From Dysidea avara (taxonomy: Eukaryota; Porifera; Demospongiae; Dictyoceratida; Dysideidae): 64,000 bases of DNA. The DNA lies in NCBI RefSeq assembly GCF_963678975.1, contig NC_089276.1, forward strand, positions 558,001-622,000, given 5' to 3'. The position numbers and the translations under genes were made by a program. The notes beneath the pieces are model-generated. The model made no database searches. It was not told where the DNA came from and was given only the letters and a program-made list of their open reading frames with translations. Below, piece by piece: positions 12,476 to 40,400 of this stretch (its first letter is position 1; each line of letters opens with the position of its first letter).

Positions 12476-14551
12476 ATGTTTGTGATCATGGCACATGTAC
12501 ATGTAGTTTGCCTAGCGTTGTTTGTCATCGCCGCGGGCATTGTTGCAGTTCAACACGGTGAATAGTTTTTAAAAAATAATTTTTTAGTAGCAATACACAC
12601 TAACGAGCTATGTATATGCAGCGTCACTGCTTAGTTATGATTTTGTAGTAATGACTATATGCCGGCATACCGCACTCAGGCATGCATAGTTATAGTTTTA
12701 TGTGTAGTTTAATTTCTTCTAGTTAATGGACAAAACAACTTGCCTACATCTGGCGCTTTTTGTGCTGGTAGTGTGATTGACTCATCTGACTGTGCTGATC
12801 TTAACTTTGCAATACAGCCAGGGTCATATGAGACGTGCTGCAGTGACCTTACATTTGGTGCATTGTTAGCTTCAGAAATACTCGATGTACTAGACTTTGG
12901 TTGCTACACATGTTCCGGTAAGAAAATAGTGGCTATATGCACAATGTTTTGTCACAGTAGTACCTGTATATGCGTGTGTACTCTCTGATATTTGCGACAG
13001 CTGATGCTATCATGCCCATGCAGCGATGCTGTATGTATTTCAGGTGCATGCTATACTGCGGATGATATGTGTACTGCTGGGACTGATGTTATTAATGGCG
13101 GTGTGGAGGAGACTGGTACTGAGCCCAATATTGAAAGGAGATTAAGAATGTTAACAATGGCAGAGTGTTGTTCTTCAACTAATAATGGATTATCATATAG
13201 AGATGGAACTACCTGTAGTATATGTCCAAGTATGTGCGGATATCACACTTATTATGTCATGTTAAAATGCTAATTAAAATATCCTATGTTTTCAGTTTGT
13301 TATGCTACACCTTTGGATTGTGGTGATGATGGTAATTTAGGTAGACTAGATTTTCTGACAGAGAACGATTGTTGTGCAAATGGAGGTGAATCTTTTAGCA
13401 ATGGTATGGAAACTTGTATGGCATGTCCATCAGGTAATATGCTCCAATAATGTCATGTAATAACCAAAATGTTCTACAGTTCCAGTTTGCTATGGTGCTT
13501 CTAATGACTGTGGTATGACTGGTGATCAAACAACTCTTGCCTTCACTACTGAAACCATGTGTTGTAATTATGGAGGAATGTCTTTTGATGCTGATGATGG
13601 CTCCATGTGTGCGACATGTCCAGACATAGGTGCGTTAACTACTAAATGAAGAAGTTTATACCTACAATCATGCATTGTGATAAATCATGCGTGATGACCT
13701 GTTCACTTGTCTCTTTAATCATTGTTTCTTTTTGCCATATCAGGGATGGGGATGGATCCACATTTTTCAGTTCCTCTCCTTGATGGCAAAGACATGTGCT
13801 TCAGCATGCAAGGAGTGGCTTACTTTGCATTCAACCTGATCTCAGATCCCATAATAAATATTAACTCCTACTTTATTCCACCTGAACCAGGGCAGAATTT
13901 CAGTGATGTTGTCACCTTTCTTGGAGACATTGGCATCACGGTACAACCTGAACACTGCATGGGACATTGCAGTGAAGAAAACATTACAAAGATTTCCATA
14001 TCAGCTTCTGACAGGAGTGTAGCAGTTGATGGGAGCAGAACAATTTTGAATAATCGTGACATACGTTTACTGATAGAAGACGGTGTTGCCCGAATCAACC
14101 TTGGTGAAGAACTAGGTAAAGAAGAACGTCCTAATCTTATAGTGGAAGTCAAGCATCCCTCACTGGCCTTTAAAGTCCAGTTTGTTAATGAGCATCTTGA
14201 TTTGATTGTAAAAGACTACAGCGGCATCAGCAGCAATGCTCATGGCATAATGGGCAAGTGCTCCTGTTTGCTGATTCTATGATGTTATCTTATCGTGTTT
14301 GTTTTCTTGTAGGACAATTCTTGCATAGGAAGTGGTCCATCACTGAAGATGGATTTCTCAGAATAGATAGGAAAAAGATTCGCTTTGAAAAGGGCCAACC
14401 ATGGGATTTCATGCACTCTAACAAGGAATGCCTCCATGCTAAGCCATCACAAGGCATACAAGCAGATGGTATCATAGAGGGAGACTACACTGACTACATT
14501 GTCGAGGGACTCCACTCTCCAGAGTTCAAATATAGCAAATTTAAGCTGTGA
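12476..14551 (+). CDS. Secreted Cys-rich protein with ITIH C-terminal domain, paralogue 1 (499 aa)
   Basis: Seven exons join cleanly: 12476-12557, 12723-12917, 13044-13229, 13296-13433, 13480-13629, 13744-14253, 14313-14551 (TGA), 1,500 nt in total. Every intron is phase 1. Exon 1 gives a hydrophobic signal peptide. Exons 2-5 each encode one Cys-rich module with a CC pair followed by a CxxC (for example DCCANGGESFS...CMAC). Exons 6-7 encode a domain starting GMDPHFSVPLLDGKDMCFS and ending EGDYTDYIVEGL. This matches the C-terminal domain of inter-alpha-trypsin inhibitor heavy chains (DPHF..., ...DGVHTDYIV). No VIT or VWA domain is present. Intron 6 has a GC donor (14254, GCAAGT) where the paralogue has GT. 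An extracellular role is inferred from the signal peptide; the function is unknown. Confidence 0.88.
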
Positions 14552-25808: not shown

Positions 25809-26538
25809 CAGGTTTTTGCAATTGAATTTGTCGCCTTTGCAATTGAATTCGTCCCGTTTGCAATTGAATTCGTCGGTATTGCAATTGAATTCGTCGGTAT
25901 TGCAATTGAATTCGTCCCGTTTGCAATTGAATTCGTCGGTTTTGCAATTGAATTCGTCGCTTTTGCAGTTGAATTAGTCGGTTTTGCAATAGAATTCGTC
26001 GCGTTTGCATTACAATTCGTCATAAACAAAACGGCTCCAAGAAACCAACCCGTTCATTAAGAGATGAACTATTTATGCCTTGGAGAGTTACACTTGAGAC
26101 ACTAGAAGGTAATTGAAGCTGGTAGTACGCGAAGTTGATAGCTGTCTGACAAGTTAATTAGCTTGCTCGCGAGTGACCACACCCATCGCGAATGGCGTAG
26201 TAGAGTTTGGAATGTTGTTGGAGAGGCTGTAGAGGAAGAATTATTGCCTTATAAAGAGTTGTTTACTACTGTTGTACTTGAACAAGTTCTTGTAGCAGCT
26301 GCTACATCATGTTTTCATGTTTGCTCCAGCTGCCATTCTTGTTATGGACGAATTTAACTGCAAAAGCGACGAATTCAATTGCAAAAGCGACGAATTCAAT
26401 TGCAAACGGGACGAATTCAATTGCAAAAGCGACGAATTCAATTGCAAACGGGACGAATTCAATTGCAAACGGGACGAATTCAATTGCAAAAGCGACGAAC
26501 TCAATTGCAAACGGGACGAATTCAATTGCAAAAACCTG
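25809..26538. mobile_element. TA-flanked foldback MITE with 21-bp tandem arms, copy 1
   Basis: The tips are CAGGTTTTTGCAATTGAATT and its inverse, flanked by TA on both sides (25807-25808, 26539-26540), as for Tc1/mariner-type insertion. Each arm is a tandem array of about nine 21-bp units (TTTGCAATTGAATTCGTCSS), in inverted orientation. The 330-bp centre is unique and nearly identical to that of the copy at 38678-39385. Because 21 is divisible by 3, the arms are open in several frames. The centre contains a frame with WRSRVWNVVGEAVEEELL, perhaps captured exon sequence. Confidence 0.85.
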
Positions 26539-31493: not shown

Positions 31494-34400
31494 CTAGTCT
31501 GTTCTTAGTGGTTTAATACCAAGTGATTTACGCAGAGCATTAGCTTGTTTGATTTCTTCATCTTCTTCTGATACTTTAGCAGTTTTACTCTTGGATTTCT
31601 TCTCTGGTTTATCACTCCTGGTGTGTCGCCGTGGTGATGGTGACCTGTCAGTATCCCTCACATCATGTGACCTACAGAACATAATATAGTCATATCATAA
31701 CAATCAAGTCAGAAGAACACTGGGGATGCCGGGATAGCCCAGTAAAATAAGAGAGGAAGTCCACCTTCTTCTACCTCAGACAATTTAAGCCATAAGCTTA
31801 GAACTATTTAGTATTTATTCTATTTACATTGAGTTTTCAATGGATAAAGGGGCTACTGACTGAGAGGACAGAAGTGATGTTCTTGTACACCAGTTTAGAC
31901 CACAATAACAATAGTAACAATTTACCTTCGAGAGTGTCTATCCCTGTGACCAGATGGTGATGGTGATCGCCTGCGTCGGTGATGAATTGGTGAACGGCTA
32001 TAGAGAACAAACAATGATTTCATAAACAGCTAGTGAATGAACAGTACAAGTGAATATGAATTATGTGCTACTATTAATACTCCAATACACTTGTTGCTAC
32101 ACACAGGACACATCACAGTAACAACAACAACACAGCAATGATACGATGTATTTGGTGTAAGGCATTCTGGCCACCTTCTAATAGTACCTTTTTCTTCTTC
32201 TCTGAGGAGAAGGAGATCTTCTTCTTGATCTCGGAGAGGGACTACGTCTTGTGGGGAAGAAGACTACATTACTATCATGGCAGGATGAAGGACTAACCTG
32301 TGACGTGAAGGTGATGGCGAGCGACTCCTTCTTCGACGGTGTGAGCGACGGTAGTCAGGGGAGCTCTGTGACCATGACAACAAGATATGTAGTTAGGAGT
32401 ATATGATATAACCAGTAACATTGACCTTATTAATCAGGTGACCTTAATACACAGTGACCTTATTAATCAGGTGACCTTAATACACAGTGACCTTATTAAT
32501 CAGGTGACCTTAATACACAGTGACCTTATTAATCAGGTGACCTTAATACACAGTGACCTTATTAATCAGGTGACCTTAATACACAGTGACCTTATTAATC
32601 AGGTGACCTTAATACACATTAACTTTACCGGCTCCAAGTGTACAATGAGGAACCGGATAGTTCTGTATGGATTACCGTGGAATGGGAGAATGGGAACTGT
32701 GTGCTGTAGGCTTGGAGTTCTCCGTCACAGGATCACGGGAAACTCACGTGACTGCTGCTGTGATGCAATGGATGTTCTACGTAGCACCGCCTAGGCACAT
32801 GCAAGCAAGGCGACTGCATGGATGAGCATCCGTTGACTTCCTTCCTTGGAGGCCGTGGGGGGCGACCTACCCCCTACCCCTGCTAGCGGATCCCTCTCCA
32901 GACAGAGCCTACAACACAGCCCATTGTCACACTAATGCTATCGCAAGCCTCATGACTCGGCTTGCCAGTTAGTGGAGGTACGAAAGAGTTTAAAAAAGGG
33001 AGGGATCAGGGAGGGACAAAGAAGCAAGCTGCTATCGCGACGAAATGTCTTAAAAAAGCGGGTAGATTATCCCGCTTGCCCCCAATAACCGCTCTTTCGT
33101 CACGTGCGCGGAATTTGAATATGATGGAGGAAGGGGGCGTCCGCGTGGTGTGTGTCGCCTCAAGTTAACACCATTTAACCTGCGGTTAAATTCGTATTAA
33201 CTTTACCGGCTCCAAGTGTACAATGAGGAACCGGATAGTTCTGTATGGATTACCGTGGAATGGGAGAATGGGAACTGTGTGCTGTAGGCTTGGAGTTCTC
33301 CGTCACAGGATCACGGGAAACTCACGTGACTGCTGCTGTGACGCAATGGATGCTCTACGTAGCACCGCCTAGGCACATGCAAGCAAGGCGACTGCATGGA
33401 TGAGCATCCGTTGACTTCCTTCCTTGGAGGCCGTGGGGGGCGACCTACCCACTCAAAGCTAGACTGTAGAAGATAACAGGCTAGCAGTTCACCACGGCCT
33501 TCTGGCTACAGCACACTGGGGCCGCATTCACCCATTCAAACGATCGTGTGGCAGCATGATCGTATTTCGTGCGGAAATTATATTCCACCTAACTAGTAAA
33601 TTAATTAAATAGACCACACACACACACCTTAATAATAAACTGAACATCCCAATAATATCCGTCAATATACTGCTACGGACAGCTTGAGAGAGCCGAGGAC
33701 ACTGCTGCCAGTCGATGGGGATCCATCCTGATATAAAGCTTGTACGAAGAGCTCTTCCATCTGCCCAGGGTCTGAATAGTTGAGTCTTCTATGCCTGCCA
33801 TAGCTGCTGTGGTGGCCGCTCCAATACGGAAGCTATGGCCAGCAAAGTCACGAGCCGGAAGATTAGCTGAAGTCAAAGCCTGGTGGGTTGCAGCGACAAA
33901 AGCCGTCTGGGATAGTGGAGTACCATCCTGCCATTGAAATAGAGCGCCTGGAACACCCCCCCGTTTCTGTAGATAACTCATGAGGGCACTAATGGGGCAG
34001 AGGTCATCCCCTGTCTTCCCTATAAATACTTTGACGCCCACCCTTTCCTGATCTGTCTTGGATTGCTTGATCAGGAGTGAAATGATTGCTGGGGAAACAG
34101 GATTATCGACTGCCACATCTGAGAGGGAGAGATCAGCACTGGGATCGAATTTGGCTGTATCCATAACTGTGACCTCACCTGAGCGGCAGAAAGAAAAGAA
34201 AGTCACCACAGCTGCCGCCCATAACATTACTGAATTGAAAGTAGGCTAATCAGTGATCCAGAATGGTTTAATCCTCCTTAAGATCATGGGAGTAATGGGT
34301 AAGCGAGATTGTTGAGGATAACCATCCCTGCCCCTCTCAACTTTAATTCCTCTGATGACCTGCTGTAATCGTGGCATCAGACCAATCTTGGGATCGGGGA

Positions 34401-37400
34401 GGCCACGGGAGATTTGCAGCTGACGAACCCCTGCCAGGTATGTGCGGATTGAGGCCTCCGCTAGACCCTGTTGACCCAAGCATGCCACAAAGTAACACAG
34501 TGTGGTTTCTGAGGTTGGCAGGGGTATGATCGAGAAACTGGCACAAAAACCCAAGTAGCGGCGCTCAGCTGATTGATAAGTTTTGTGAGTAGATGGAGCC
34601 AGTCCAGCCATATAATATTTCTGTACTGCTGCGTCAAGTTGGGAAACCAGCGTCAAGGATCCTAAGGTGAGAGGAGAGCATCTCATGATAGTATATTCAT
34701 ACAAATAGCTATGGGAATATACATAGGAACGAATAACAGAACACAAACACAGTTCAATATATTTGTACAGATATACACAGAGTCGTAACATAGAATTACT
34801 ACTGAATAAGTCTGAAGTCAGTATATCTAGAGTCGTTGTAGTCCTTTACTTGTCTCCTGTAAAGGTTTATCGTCAGATGTAACTGTCACAAATAGTTGAG
34901 CCCACGAGGGGGAAATCCAGGTAATGTTCTGGGATATGAGCTCCACCAATGGACGTGATATGGAGGCTGGAGAGGGTGATGCGTGAGGAATCATAGCAAA
35001 GAACTGGTCCAGACGGTTACGCGAGATGGCATCCGCCTGAGAATTGAGCCGGCCAGGAATATGGATAGCTGAGAACCAGAAATCATGCCGAGCAGCAAAG
35101 AATACCAATAGGCGAATTAAGTGCATCATATGGATGTCCTTAGATGTGGTAGAGTTCAGTACTGACACCACTGCCTCATTATCTACCACGAATTGAATCA
35201 TCTTACCTGACCAAGAGGCGCCAAAGGTAGCAGCCACAAGCACCACAGGTATAAGCTCCTTGACAGCGATGTTCAAGTGATATAGACGGGGTGACCACTT
35301 TAGCTGTAGCCATAGACGGTCTTGGACTGCTCCGCAACCCCAAGAGCCAGAAGCGTCCGTGTAGATTGAGATGTCAACCCTTGTCAAGCCCAGGTCCCAC
35401 AGGAGGGACACACCGTTCCACTGTTCGGCAAAGAGCAGCCACCAAGTGATATCCGCTATGGCCGAGTTGTTGAGACGTACAAGATGATCAGGGCGGCTGC
35501 CCACCCCTTGAAGGGTGTATAATCTTCTTACGAAGGGCCTTCCCGGGCGGACCACTTTGGACGCGAACTGTAGTAGACCGGTTAACTGCTCTAACGCATG
35601 TTTGGTTACTGAACGATGGTAAGCATAGCGACGCAAGTAAACGAGTAACTCTGTTAGTTTAGCTCTGGGGAGGCGGAGTTGGAAAGCTTCCGTATCTACC
35701 TCTATTCCAAGGAAGGTCAGGCAGTGGGAAGGGCCTTCCAACTTGGATGGTTCGACCGGGACGCCGAGAGAATCAAACAGGGATAGTAGCGAACGTTTCT
35801 GTAGCTCTGCTGAGGGCTGAGACTGTGCCACGAAAATGAAATCGTCGAGGTAATGAAGGCCCCGGGATACTCCCTGGCGCCTAAGCATCCACTGTATGGC
35901 GTCCGTAATAGCTGTGAAGATCTTGGGAGCTGAACGTAGGCCGAAGGGAAGCATTCGGTCGATAAACACAGTACCTTGCCATTGGACACCCAGAAGGTAC
36001 TGGTCTTCTGGGTGGACTGGTACCATACGATAAGCCTCTTTGATGTCGGCTTTTACTAGGAACGAGCCCCTGCCCGTGGCTACAATCAGGGCTGCCAAGT
36101 GGTCCACGGAGGCGTAAGACAAAGAGGATCTTTCTTTGCTGATACCCTCGTTAACGCTGAAATTCATTGGGGAGGATAGGTCCACAATAAGTCTCCACCT
36201 ACCCGGCTTATGTTTCTTGGGAATTAGGCCAATGGGACTAATGTGGATTCCCCTCGGGAAAAACCCTTTAGGGCACCGCCACATTCGGTGCAGCTGCACC
36301 TCACGTGCTAGGTAATCCGATACCAGTGATGGCCTTAGAATGTGTAGATTCTGGCCCGAGTATTGAAGTGGATAGGAGCGACAGAATCCAATACGGAATC
36401 CGTCGTGAATACCCGACAGGATATAATTTACAAATTGGCGATCGGGGTGATTGGCAAGCTGTGCTGCCCAGGTTGTCCATCTAAGGGAGGTATCAATCTC
36501 CATAGAAATGATGGCGTTGGGAGTGGGTGAGTGACCACACTGGCTGTCTAAGGCCAACAAGTCATCATAATACTTGTATCTTCCATTCAGCACCATCCCT
36601 CCAGTGAACAGGGTGAGCTCCGGATCTATGGAGGGGGGAAACAGTGAATTACACACCAAGCGGTGGAGAGTTGTTTCCCCCCAACCATGTTATATAGTTG
36701 CCAGTGACAACCAGAGAGTGGCATGCAAGGAGACACAATGAACTATGCAGTTGAACAAGTGGTCATATTTGAGACTGTATAACCTGACATGATGTAAGTA
36801 GCTACGTTAGTTTTGTATATGTAAATGTATACATGTATAATAAGGCAATAGGAGCCCAGCTCCATCAGCAATACAATAAGATAAAATACATAAATGAGTC
36901 CAGCTCAGTATATGCCATTGCTACATGATAAGTGTCAACCACAGGTGGGGAGGACCATCCTCACTTTTTGCCCCACGATCGTTTCATGGTGCAGGCAATT
37001 CTTGGGTGAGGTCCCCCGCACTCTGAGCAGGCGTGCAAATATCGGCAGCGTGGGCGCTGACAGTTGCCAGTGTTCCATTTGAAGCAGATGGGGGTGGTGC
37101 CAGCAAATATATCTGGTGGTCCGAACGAGGCTGGGGGGGTGGGTCGGGGCAAACATCTGCCGTAGATCGAAAGGTTAAGTTCACCCCAGACAGTAATGCC
37201 TTTGGCGGCTGCCCACTCCCTGAACTCCCAGTCGTAGACGAGCCAATGACGGCCGCCCAGGTCTTGAGCTAATTGTAGTACCACATGAAGGTGGGCTGCA
37301 AGGCCTGCTGCCTCTGCCTTTGATGTCGTCGGAGCTGACAAAAGGACTGCCATCAGCCGGGCATATGCCTGCAACCATGTAGCAAGATCCGTAATGGTGG

Positions 37401-40400
37401 AAGGGGACTTCCTCGGAGATTTGGCCTGAGTAACAATGTGGCCCTCCACCATTGACGATGAGCCCTCACTGGAGTCAGCCCCTCCAATTAGCTGGGCTAA
37501 GTCTATAAACTCCCAGCGTCTAATTTTCTCAATGAGACGAGTGGACACTGGAGGAATACCCTCAGCCACAACCAGGGAGGGGCCTCTACTGAGTTGGGGA
37601 GGGTCCGGTACACTGCTTACAGGGGGAAGTGGTGCTCCCCGTGCCCCCAGCAACGGGTCAACCGGAAGAAGTGGTCCAGCGCTGCGGCCACCTGACAGAA
37701 ACAATTAAGATAATGGCAGTCCATTAGCAGTGTGGCAGTGCGCTGCACTGGGCAACCAAATCAAATTACACAATGAAAGTAACCGGATACTGGCCGTTTT
37801 GGCCCCCCCTTTTGCTACCACCAGTAACTGGAGAGCAGCCGCCTACTAGCGACTGCCGACAGGGTAGAGCAGCCAGGTAGAGTGCGCTGCACTACTCAGG
37901 GATTGGTGCGCTGCACCGCTACGAACATTCAACAGAGCAAATATAAAGGAAAACAACAACAGCCATGACCAATAACAGATAACTACCTGAAGGCGAGGAT
38001 GGGACTTGTACCCCTGCCGGAGTAGCAGCGGAGGACAGGGGGTTCCTCGACGAAGGTCCCGGCTGTTGTAGAATTCCGGCAACGGCCGTGGCGATGTTTG
38101 AAAGGTCGTTCGGGGTAAGTCTCAAACGAAGCGTGGATGAAGTGGGTGGCGGTAGCCCAGGCATGGACACTGGGATAGCCGGTGGGGGCGGAGGAAGTCC
38201 TGGAACTATTGGCACTGACGCCGGAACTACTGGAGCAGGAATGGCGGGAGCCATTGGAACGGAGACAACTGGTTGCACGAGAACTGGAGCCGTTGTAGAG
38301 GACTGTGTCAACACTACAGCCGGAGGGGCCGGCGGCACACCAGAGCCAGACGCTGACGACGAATTCATCTCACTTTGAACGTAGAACAAAGAAGCAAGCT
38401 GCTATCGCGACGAAATGTCTTTAAAAAGCGGGTAGATTATCCCGCTTGCCCCCAATAACCGCTCTTTCGTCACGTGCGCGGAATTTGAATATGATGGAGG
38501 AAGGGGGCGTCCGCGTGGTGTGTGTCGCCTCAAGTTAACACCATTTAACCTGCGGTTAAATTCGTAGTGACCTTATTAATCAGGTGACCTTAATACACAG
38601 TGACCTTATTAATCAGGTGACCTTAATACACAGTGACCTTATTAATCAGGTGACCTTAATACACAGTGACCTTATTACAGGTTTTTGCAATTGAATTCGT
38701 CGCCTTTGCAATTGAATTCGTCCCGTTTGCAATTGAATTCGTCCCGTTTGCAATTGAATTCGTCGGTTTTGCAATTGAATTTGTCGCTTTTGCAGTTGAA
38801 TTAGTCGGTTTTGCAATAGAATTCGTCGCGTTTGCATTACAATTCGTCATAAATAAAACGGCTCCAAGAAACCAACCCGTTCATTAAGAGATGAACTATT
38901 TATGCCTTGGAGAGTTACACTTGAGACACTAGAAGGTAATTGAAGCTGGTAGTACGCGAAGTTGATAGCTGTCTACAAGTTAATTAGCTTGCTCGCGAGT
39001 GACCACACCCATCGCGAATGGCGTAGTAGAGTTTGGAATGTTGTTGGAGAGGCTGTAGAGGAAGAATTATTGCCTTATAAAGAGTTGTTTACTACTGTTG
39101 TACTTGAACAAGTTCTTGTAGCAGCTGCTACATCATGTTTTCATGTTTGCTCCAGCTGCCATTCTTGTTATGGACGAATTTAACTGCAAAAGTGACGAAT
39201 TCAATTGCAAAAGCGACAAATTCAATTGCAAACGGGACGAATTCAATTGCAAAAGCGACGAATTCAATTGCAAACGGGACGAATTCAATTGCAAACGGGA
39301 CGAATTCAATTGCAAAAGCGACGAACTCAATTGCAAACGGGACGAATTCAATTGCAAAGTCGCCGAATTCAATTGCAAAAACCTGTAATCAGGTGACCTT
39401 AATACACAGTGACCTTATTAATCAGGTGACCTTATTAATCAGGTGACCTTATTAATCAGGCGACCTTATTAATCAGGTGACCTTATTAATCAGGTGGCTA
39501 CATTAGACAGGTCACTAATGACACATTTACAGTTGGCTGGTTTATGACCTTGCTTTAATAGAACAGCCATTCCAAGCAATGCAAAAAATCCTTATAAAAA
39601 CCTTAGAACACTAAGTAAGCCAACGACTTATACTGAGCAGTAGTTGTCCTAACTTAACAATACAATAAAATTAATACTCAATGTAATTCCTACAAGTATA
39701 AGGAAAAATATAAGAATATTAAAGTTTCTTAAAATAAAAAGTATAGGGAAACAAGGGAGGTCACCTATACCTGAAGATATACTAGTGAACATTAATCCCT
39801 AATTCAGTCTTGGTCTAGGGTATAGACTGCATTAGGGATTAAATGTTCACTAGTATATCTTATGTGTAGGCGACCTCCCTTGTTTCCCTACTTTTTATTT
39901 CTATGATCCTAAAAATTCTTAATTTTTCCTTATACTTGTTTGTTTACTTTTTTGTAACATTATTATGACTGGTGAACCCACACATACCACATTAGAATGG
40001 AAAGCTACAGGCTTATTGCTTTTGCCTGAACGTGTACCCCGAATATCAAATACTGAAACAGTGAAGTGGCCATTACGCTTTGTTTTTAGCTATGTTCAGC
40101 CTGTTACACGTGTTCAGCCTGTTACACATGTTCAGCCTGTTACACGTGTTCAGTCTGTTACACGTGTTCAGCCTGTTACACATGTTCAACCTGTTACACA
40201 TGTTCAGCCTGTTACACAGTGTTGCAAACGAAGAAACACTAGGAGAAGGACCTCTGCAATCAATCAGTCACAATGGAAAATTTAGATGATACCCATCAAA
40301 CATAGGGAAGTAATCACGTAGCAATAACACGAATCAACACCTCACTGTCAGCAAAGATGAATGGGACACAAAGGAGAACACTGGTAAGTCCATGAAGCAT

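Follow-up and report, generated by a model that had tools for sequence, protein, structure and literature searches.

A tyrosine-recombinase (YR) retrotransposon with split direct repeats lies at positions 32619 to 38566 of the 64,000-nucleotide stretch of the Dysidea avara genome that was analysed here (contig NC_089276.1, positions 558,001 to 622,000; called the window in the following), where it is cleanly inserted into an array of 33-bp units. It is another representative of the known Ngaro kind, and it very probably entered its target conservatively, with no target base gained or lost, through recombination of a junction of its own ends at GTA/TTAA (the slash marks the point of crossover). 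Little is known about the way in which YR retrotransposons select and cleave their target sites. As the insertion into a repeated array is clean, the pre-insertion target can still be read, and such an intact-array target in a genome that is rich in relatives allows both the crossover point and the target preference to be measured from sequence alone. The element and its surroundings are composed as follows.

32421..32618, no strand: left part of the array, five exact 33-bp units and one with 1 mismatch
32619..32872, minus strand: terminal repeat A1, the sense 3' end of the element; begins TTAACTTTACC; 2 differences in 254 bp from A2, at 32764 and 32775
32873..33015, minus strand: unique spacer X from A1 to B1, the 143 bp that remain between the repeats
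33016..33196, minus strand: internal repeat B1; together with A2 it forms a joined copy of both element ends, GGTTAAATTCGTA/TTAACTTTACC
33197..33450, minus strand: internal repeat A2, from the repeat comparison
33673..34845, minus strand: YR frame, Phage_integrase match (1e-6, above cut-off), split by an in-frame TAG at 34246-34248
34827..36689, minus strand: reverse transcriptase (RT) and RNase H frame, 620 aa with 0 internal stops, RVT_1 match (5.1e-12, above cut-off)
36961..37691, minus strand: putative exon 2 of a gag-like ORF, with a C-terminal CCCH finger and a CCHC-like knuckle; CCCH matches below cut-off
37692..37986, minus strand: possible gag intron, phase-1 GT-AG, 295 nt, predicted from sequence
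37987..38368, minus strand: putative exon 1 of the gag-like ORF, Ala/Pro/Val-rich
38386..38566, minus strand: terminal repeat B2, the sense 5' end; its plus-strand end is GGTTAAATTCGTA; 1 difference in 181 bp from B1, at 33052 of the latter
38567..38677, no strand: right part of the array, phase kept, begins GTGACC

The sense strand is the minus strand, and the order is B2-ORFs-A2-B1-(143-bp spacer)-A1. The original prediction had described nearly identical repeats A of 254 bp and B of 181 bp in the order B-ORFs-A-B-A, within an element at 32619 to 38566 that splits the array, and it was right about lengths, order and positions, including the borders, as the array stops at 32618 and resumes at 38567. 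The G+C content of the element is 51%, against 38% in the remaining window. Inverted repeats of at least 30 bp were not found between 32619 and 38566, where none of the 14 inverted pairs of the window falls. Inverted repeats were also sought at the B1-A2 junction; the best small palindrome is located inside B and off the crossover, and nothing was concluded from it.

The search of the genome for further copies, which had been suggested together with the original prediction, gave three closely related copies only. Repeat A was found at 17 places (17 of 17 candidates); on C5, C3 and C14 five matches reach an identity of at least 97%. The search with the RT yielded at least 75 matches from the 71 scored of 2,347 first-look candidates; among the matches listed, the closest RTs are those of the C3 copy (93%) and the C14 copy (96-97%, in two abutting pieces), and other RT families follow at 68%, mostly at 52-61%, and at 41-47%. 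The C3 copy has the full structure and is located in non-array DNA, with TATATAA as left and TTAACTTC as right flank and no target duplication. The C14 copy possesses one A and one B, its gag is interrupted by unrelated sequence, and its flanks are AAATCAG and TTAAACG. C13 has a single A start and a single B end, its ORFs are all short, and the internal junction was not found there. C2 carries A, B and A, with no second B end in the 9.5 kb examined. A solo A-spacer-B of 913 bp was found on C11. It lies between two near-identical GATAATCACGTGATATAGRAATTTCGCG stretches (L052:2157-3330), the right one of which is set apart from the element, so that they do not represent a plain target duplication. 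The A-ORFs-B forms on C14 and C13 and the A-X-B form on C11 were considered as products of resolved circles, and this was rejected, because homologous recombination between the repeats yields the same products. Across all ends found, the plus strand of the contigs is favoured (A starts 15 versus 3, B ends 18 versus 4, where an element may contribute both of its ends and a part of the matches is due to chance), which would be odd if contig orientation is arbitrary.

B ends are followed by TTAA more often than expected by chance. The search for B ends gave 22 matches, compared with 1 for the control. After subtraction of 3 internal B1-A2 junctions, the remaining 19 were aligned, and four were dropped, namely L070, L081 and L083, which have no upstream homology to B and may be chance matches, and L082, which shares its flank with L071, leaving 15. 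TTAA directly follows the B end (position +1) in 5 of these 15 distinct right flanks, with a background of 0.011 at the other offsets of the same flanks (p 4e-7), and 14 of 15 have A at position +3 (background 0.34, p 3e-6). An exact TTAA is absent after the other 10 B ends. Before removal of the three doubtful ends the TTAA count was 6/18. Since the idea of a TTAA preference arose after the flanks of the C3 and C14 copies had been seen, the counts were recomputed without both, which gives TTAA in 3/13 (p 5e-4); with the ambiguous L071 also left out, TTAA is found in 2/12 (p 0.011) and A at +3 in 11/12. In the left flanks (n=11) no clear motif was recognized. The TTAA bias at B ends is a new observation of this analysis, which is not meant as a claim that it is unpublished. 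Our literature search, which did not reach most subscription papers, including the original descriptions of Ngaro, gave a general review for a TTAA preference of Ngaro elements, and for empty sites of YR retrotransposons or DIRS elements a paper that apparently concerns non-LTR elements in yeast.

It could be argued that the TTAA next to B ends merely reflects base composition, as the flanks are A+T-rich, or that some of the B ends are internal B1-A2 junctions of other families. L071 and L082, which are B ends on C1 and C15, have almost the same downstream sequence, which may be one and the same host repeat, a duplicated locus or an internal junction. We regard this explanation as unlikely, because the frequency of TTAA at other offsets is only 1%, because the count without L071 is still 4/14 (p 2e-5), and because the remaining flanks differ from each other and from the A start.

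The A end of the element itself starts with TTAA, and of 18 A starts that were found with up to 3 mismatches all 18 have TTAA and 17 have TTAAC, where up to about 7 may be chance matches, as the reversed control gave 7. With at most 1 mismatch 12 A starts are obtained, comprising 3 internal A2 copies and 9 terminal ends. If mismatched target letters were sorted randomly, about one third of the A ends would be expected to be non-TTAA, as estimated from the rate at the B side; none of the 9 terminal A ends is, and the chance of this under random sorting is about 3%. The retention of TTAA at the A ends thus argues against random sorting, which is suggestive but not decisive. Taken together, the TTAA bias at the B ends and the TTAA of the A ends point to a circular junction GTA/TTAAC that recombines, always at the same point, with targets similar to TTAA. 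We tentatively propose, as a reading with less than an even chance, that in this group of Ngaro-type elements the crossover is fixed just before the TTAA of the A end, that the first bases of the targets resemble TTAA with A nearly always at +3, and that it is invariably the B end that receives the letters of the target. If this is true, the right half-site of the target is recognized one-sidedly, and an overlap with mismatches is not sorted randomly.

Such a mechanism would begin with the reverse transcription of the sense RNA. The internal B1-A2 copy would bridge both ends of the element and thereby give rise to a circular DNA with the junction GGTTAAATTCGTA/TTAACTTTACC, and the recombinase of the element would join this junction to a chromosomal site that resembles its right half, at best TTAA and with A at the third position. 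With a crossover at GTA/TTAA, the A end would retain the TTAA of the element, and the bases of the target would follow the B end. The recombination of a junction with a short matching target would leave no duplication, as in the model for DIRS1, in which a 3-bp circular junction recombines with an identical genomic sequence (PMC3266345; this and the other articles are cited from excerpts). That a circle is formed, that the recombinase is responsible and that the steps follow in this order are inferences. Two findings at the window speak against this mechanism: the target in the array before insertion was TAATACACA/GTGACC, and GTGA is a poor match to TTAA, and the frame that encodes the recombinase is interrupted in this copy.

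The C-terminal piece of the recombinase retains R, K, HxxR and Y, which we take to be the catalytic residues of YRs, in alignment with YRs from two related families whose frames are intact. At the codon that is TAG in the window copy, a stop is absent from the C3 and C14 relatives; the C3 copy has stops of its own. Either the stop arose after the insertion, or the recombinase was supplied by another copy. The predicted structure of this piece could not be used (pLDDT 32), and a comparison with Cre gave a match at E 0.22 only. In the RNase H region D445, E478 and D503, which presumably are RNase H positions, are conserved in the alignment; the Pfam search for RNase H gave nothing at E<=1. The two gag-like exons would be spliced to a frame of 370 aa. 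In the five ORFs of the element that were scanned, no methyltransferase (PF05869), DDE integrase or protease was matched at E<=1, and the same library detects PF05869 in L088 and L089. In the whole assembly PF05869 is found 48 times, 43 of these above cut-off.

As an RT is present, the catalytic residues of the recombinase are retained and a methyltransferase is not detected, the element is assigned to the Ngaro type and not to the PAT or DIRS1 type. The original prediction of a Ngaro/PAT-type element thus stands as to the YR retrotransposon and can be narrowed to Ngaro, as the RT is also apart from those of methyltransferase-bearing elements. Its identity is 43-68% to the RTs of four methyltransferase-free families of the genome and 24-26% to three RTs of methyltransferase-bearing elements; in L088 and L089 RT and methyltransferase occur together in the frames, while L090 was read in frame without the methyltransferase. 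An unrooted tree of these 8 in-genome RT sequences (357 columns, without named Ngaro or PAT references) splits the methyltransferase-bearing set from the window RT and the four methyltransferase-free families (UFBoot 100, FastTree support 1.000), which supports, within this set of sequences, a Ngaro type over a PAT or DIRS1 type. With Ngaro elements, which are organized as A1-ORFs-B1A2B2 and are known from zebrafish, sea urchin, fungi and Cafeteria, the element shares the split direct repeats with the internal pair downstream of the YR, the gag-like ORF with a finger, the location of the RT (with its putative RNase H) and the YR on the same strand, the undetected methyltransferase, and the absence of a target duplication, which holds for the C3 copy and, apart from an invisible one of 33 bp, for the window. 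It differs from them in the 143-bp spacer between B1 and A1, and the TTAA-like target preference and the proposed fixed crossover come from measurements in its own group. Solo A-B remnants of Ngaro have been described in Cafeteria (PMC8547959) and are matched by the C11 remnant in the sponge genome. DIRS1-like elements also encode a YR, but DIRS1 possesses a methyltransferase and inverted repeats, and neither inverted terminal repeats nor internal complementary regions were found in the element at a scale of at least 30 bp. It also does not resemble an LTR retrotransposon, as the five ORFs gave no DDE integrase match and the repeats are split rather than LTRs.

Another possibility is a PAT-type element, from the DIRS/PAT branch, in which the methyltransferase was lost. 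PAT elements bear a methyltransferase (PMC4157794), and none was detected here, but split direct repeats are common to PAT and Ngaro, and methyltransferase-free derivatives of PAT exist, as in a nematode case (same excerpt). We consider this very improbable, given the RT identities and the branch that separates the 8 sequences. Further literature that was drawn on is found in PMC3783388 and PMC9210276.

At the insertion site, the last left unit of the array is followed in phase by the first right unit, the 99 bases on the left and the 99 on the right of the element are identical, and among suffix/prefix matches of 1-33 bases across the flanks only the full 33 is present. When up to 2 mismatches are allowed, the 33-bp unit is found 9 times in the assembly (550.8 Mb, 108 contigs), always at this locus, and a reversed-pattern control gave no match. 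The predicted junction, ATACACA followed by the element and GTGACC, is the same as the junction inside intact units, as originally claimed. The further claim that no base was added or removed holds except for a duplication of 33 bp or a multiple, which would be invisible in the array, whereas no other length of 1-33 bp fits. One A is common to the array flank and the element end, so that the crossover can be placed to within one base. It might be objected that the array was formed or homogenized after the insertion, as tandem arrays change by unequal exchange and the units next to the element are identical, in which case the in-phase junction would say nothing about the insertion; however, exchange could hardly restore the phase across a 5.9-kb insert without deleting it, and a duplication is likewise absent at the C3 copy, which is located in non-array DNA, which makes this objection extremely improbable. 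That the insertion duplicated precisely one 33-bp unit of the target, although this would escape notice in the array, is scarcely credible, as the C3 copy has no duplication and YR elements are described as inserting without one (excerpt of PMC3266345).

The insertion was also predicted to be recent. At the time of insertion hardly any difference is expected within the pairs A1/A2 and B1/B2 (excerpt of PMC6681497). The 3 differences in 435 repeat bases show that the insertion is young in relative terms, when the element itself serves as the clock. This part of the prediction is thus kept with qualification, as this clock is not calibrated by a mutation rate, the frame of the recombinase has already been disrupted and no more than three close copies were found.

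Outside the genome, RT relatives were sought in IMG/VR and none was confirmed; a degenerate recombinase motif matched one contig there, which was discarded, as its ORFs are phage-like and unrelated by eye. Rfam and tRNA scans of the window were empty. At 13719-14282 a weak match to the C-terminus of an inter-alpha-trypsin inhibitor heavy chain was obtained (E 0.0019, below cut-off). A second, unrelated inverted-repeat element of 708 bp is inserted in the same array at 38678-39385, with the ends CAGGTTTTTGC, subterminal 21-bp repeats and TA on both sides, and a further copy of this type is found at 25809-26538, also between TA.
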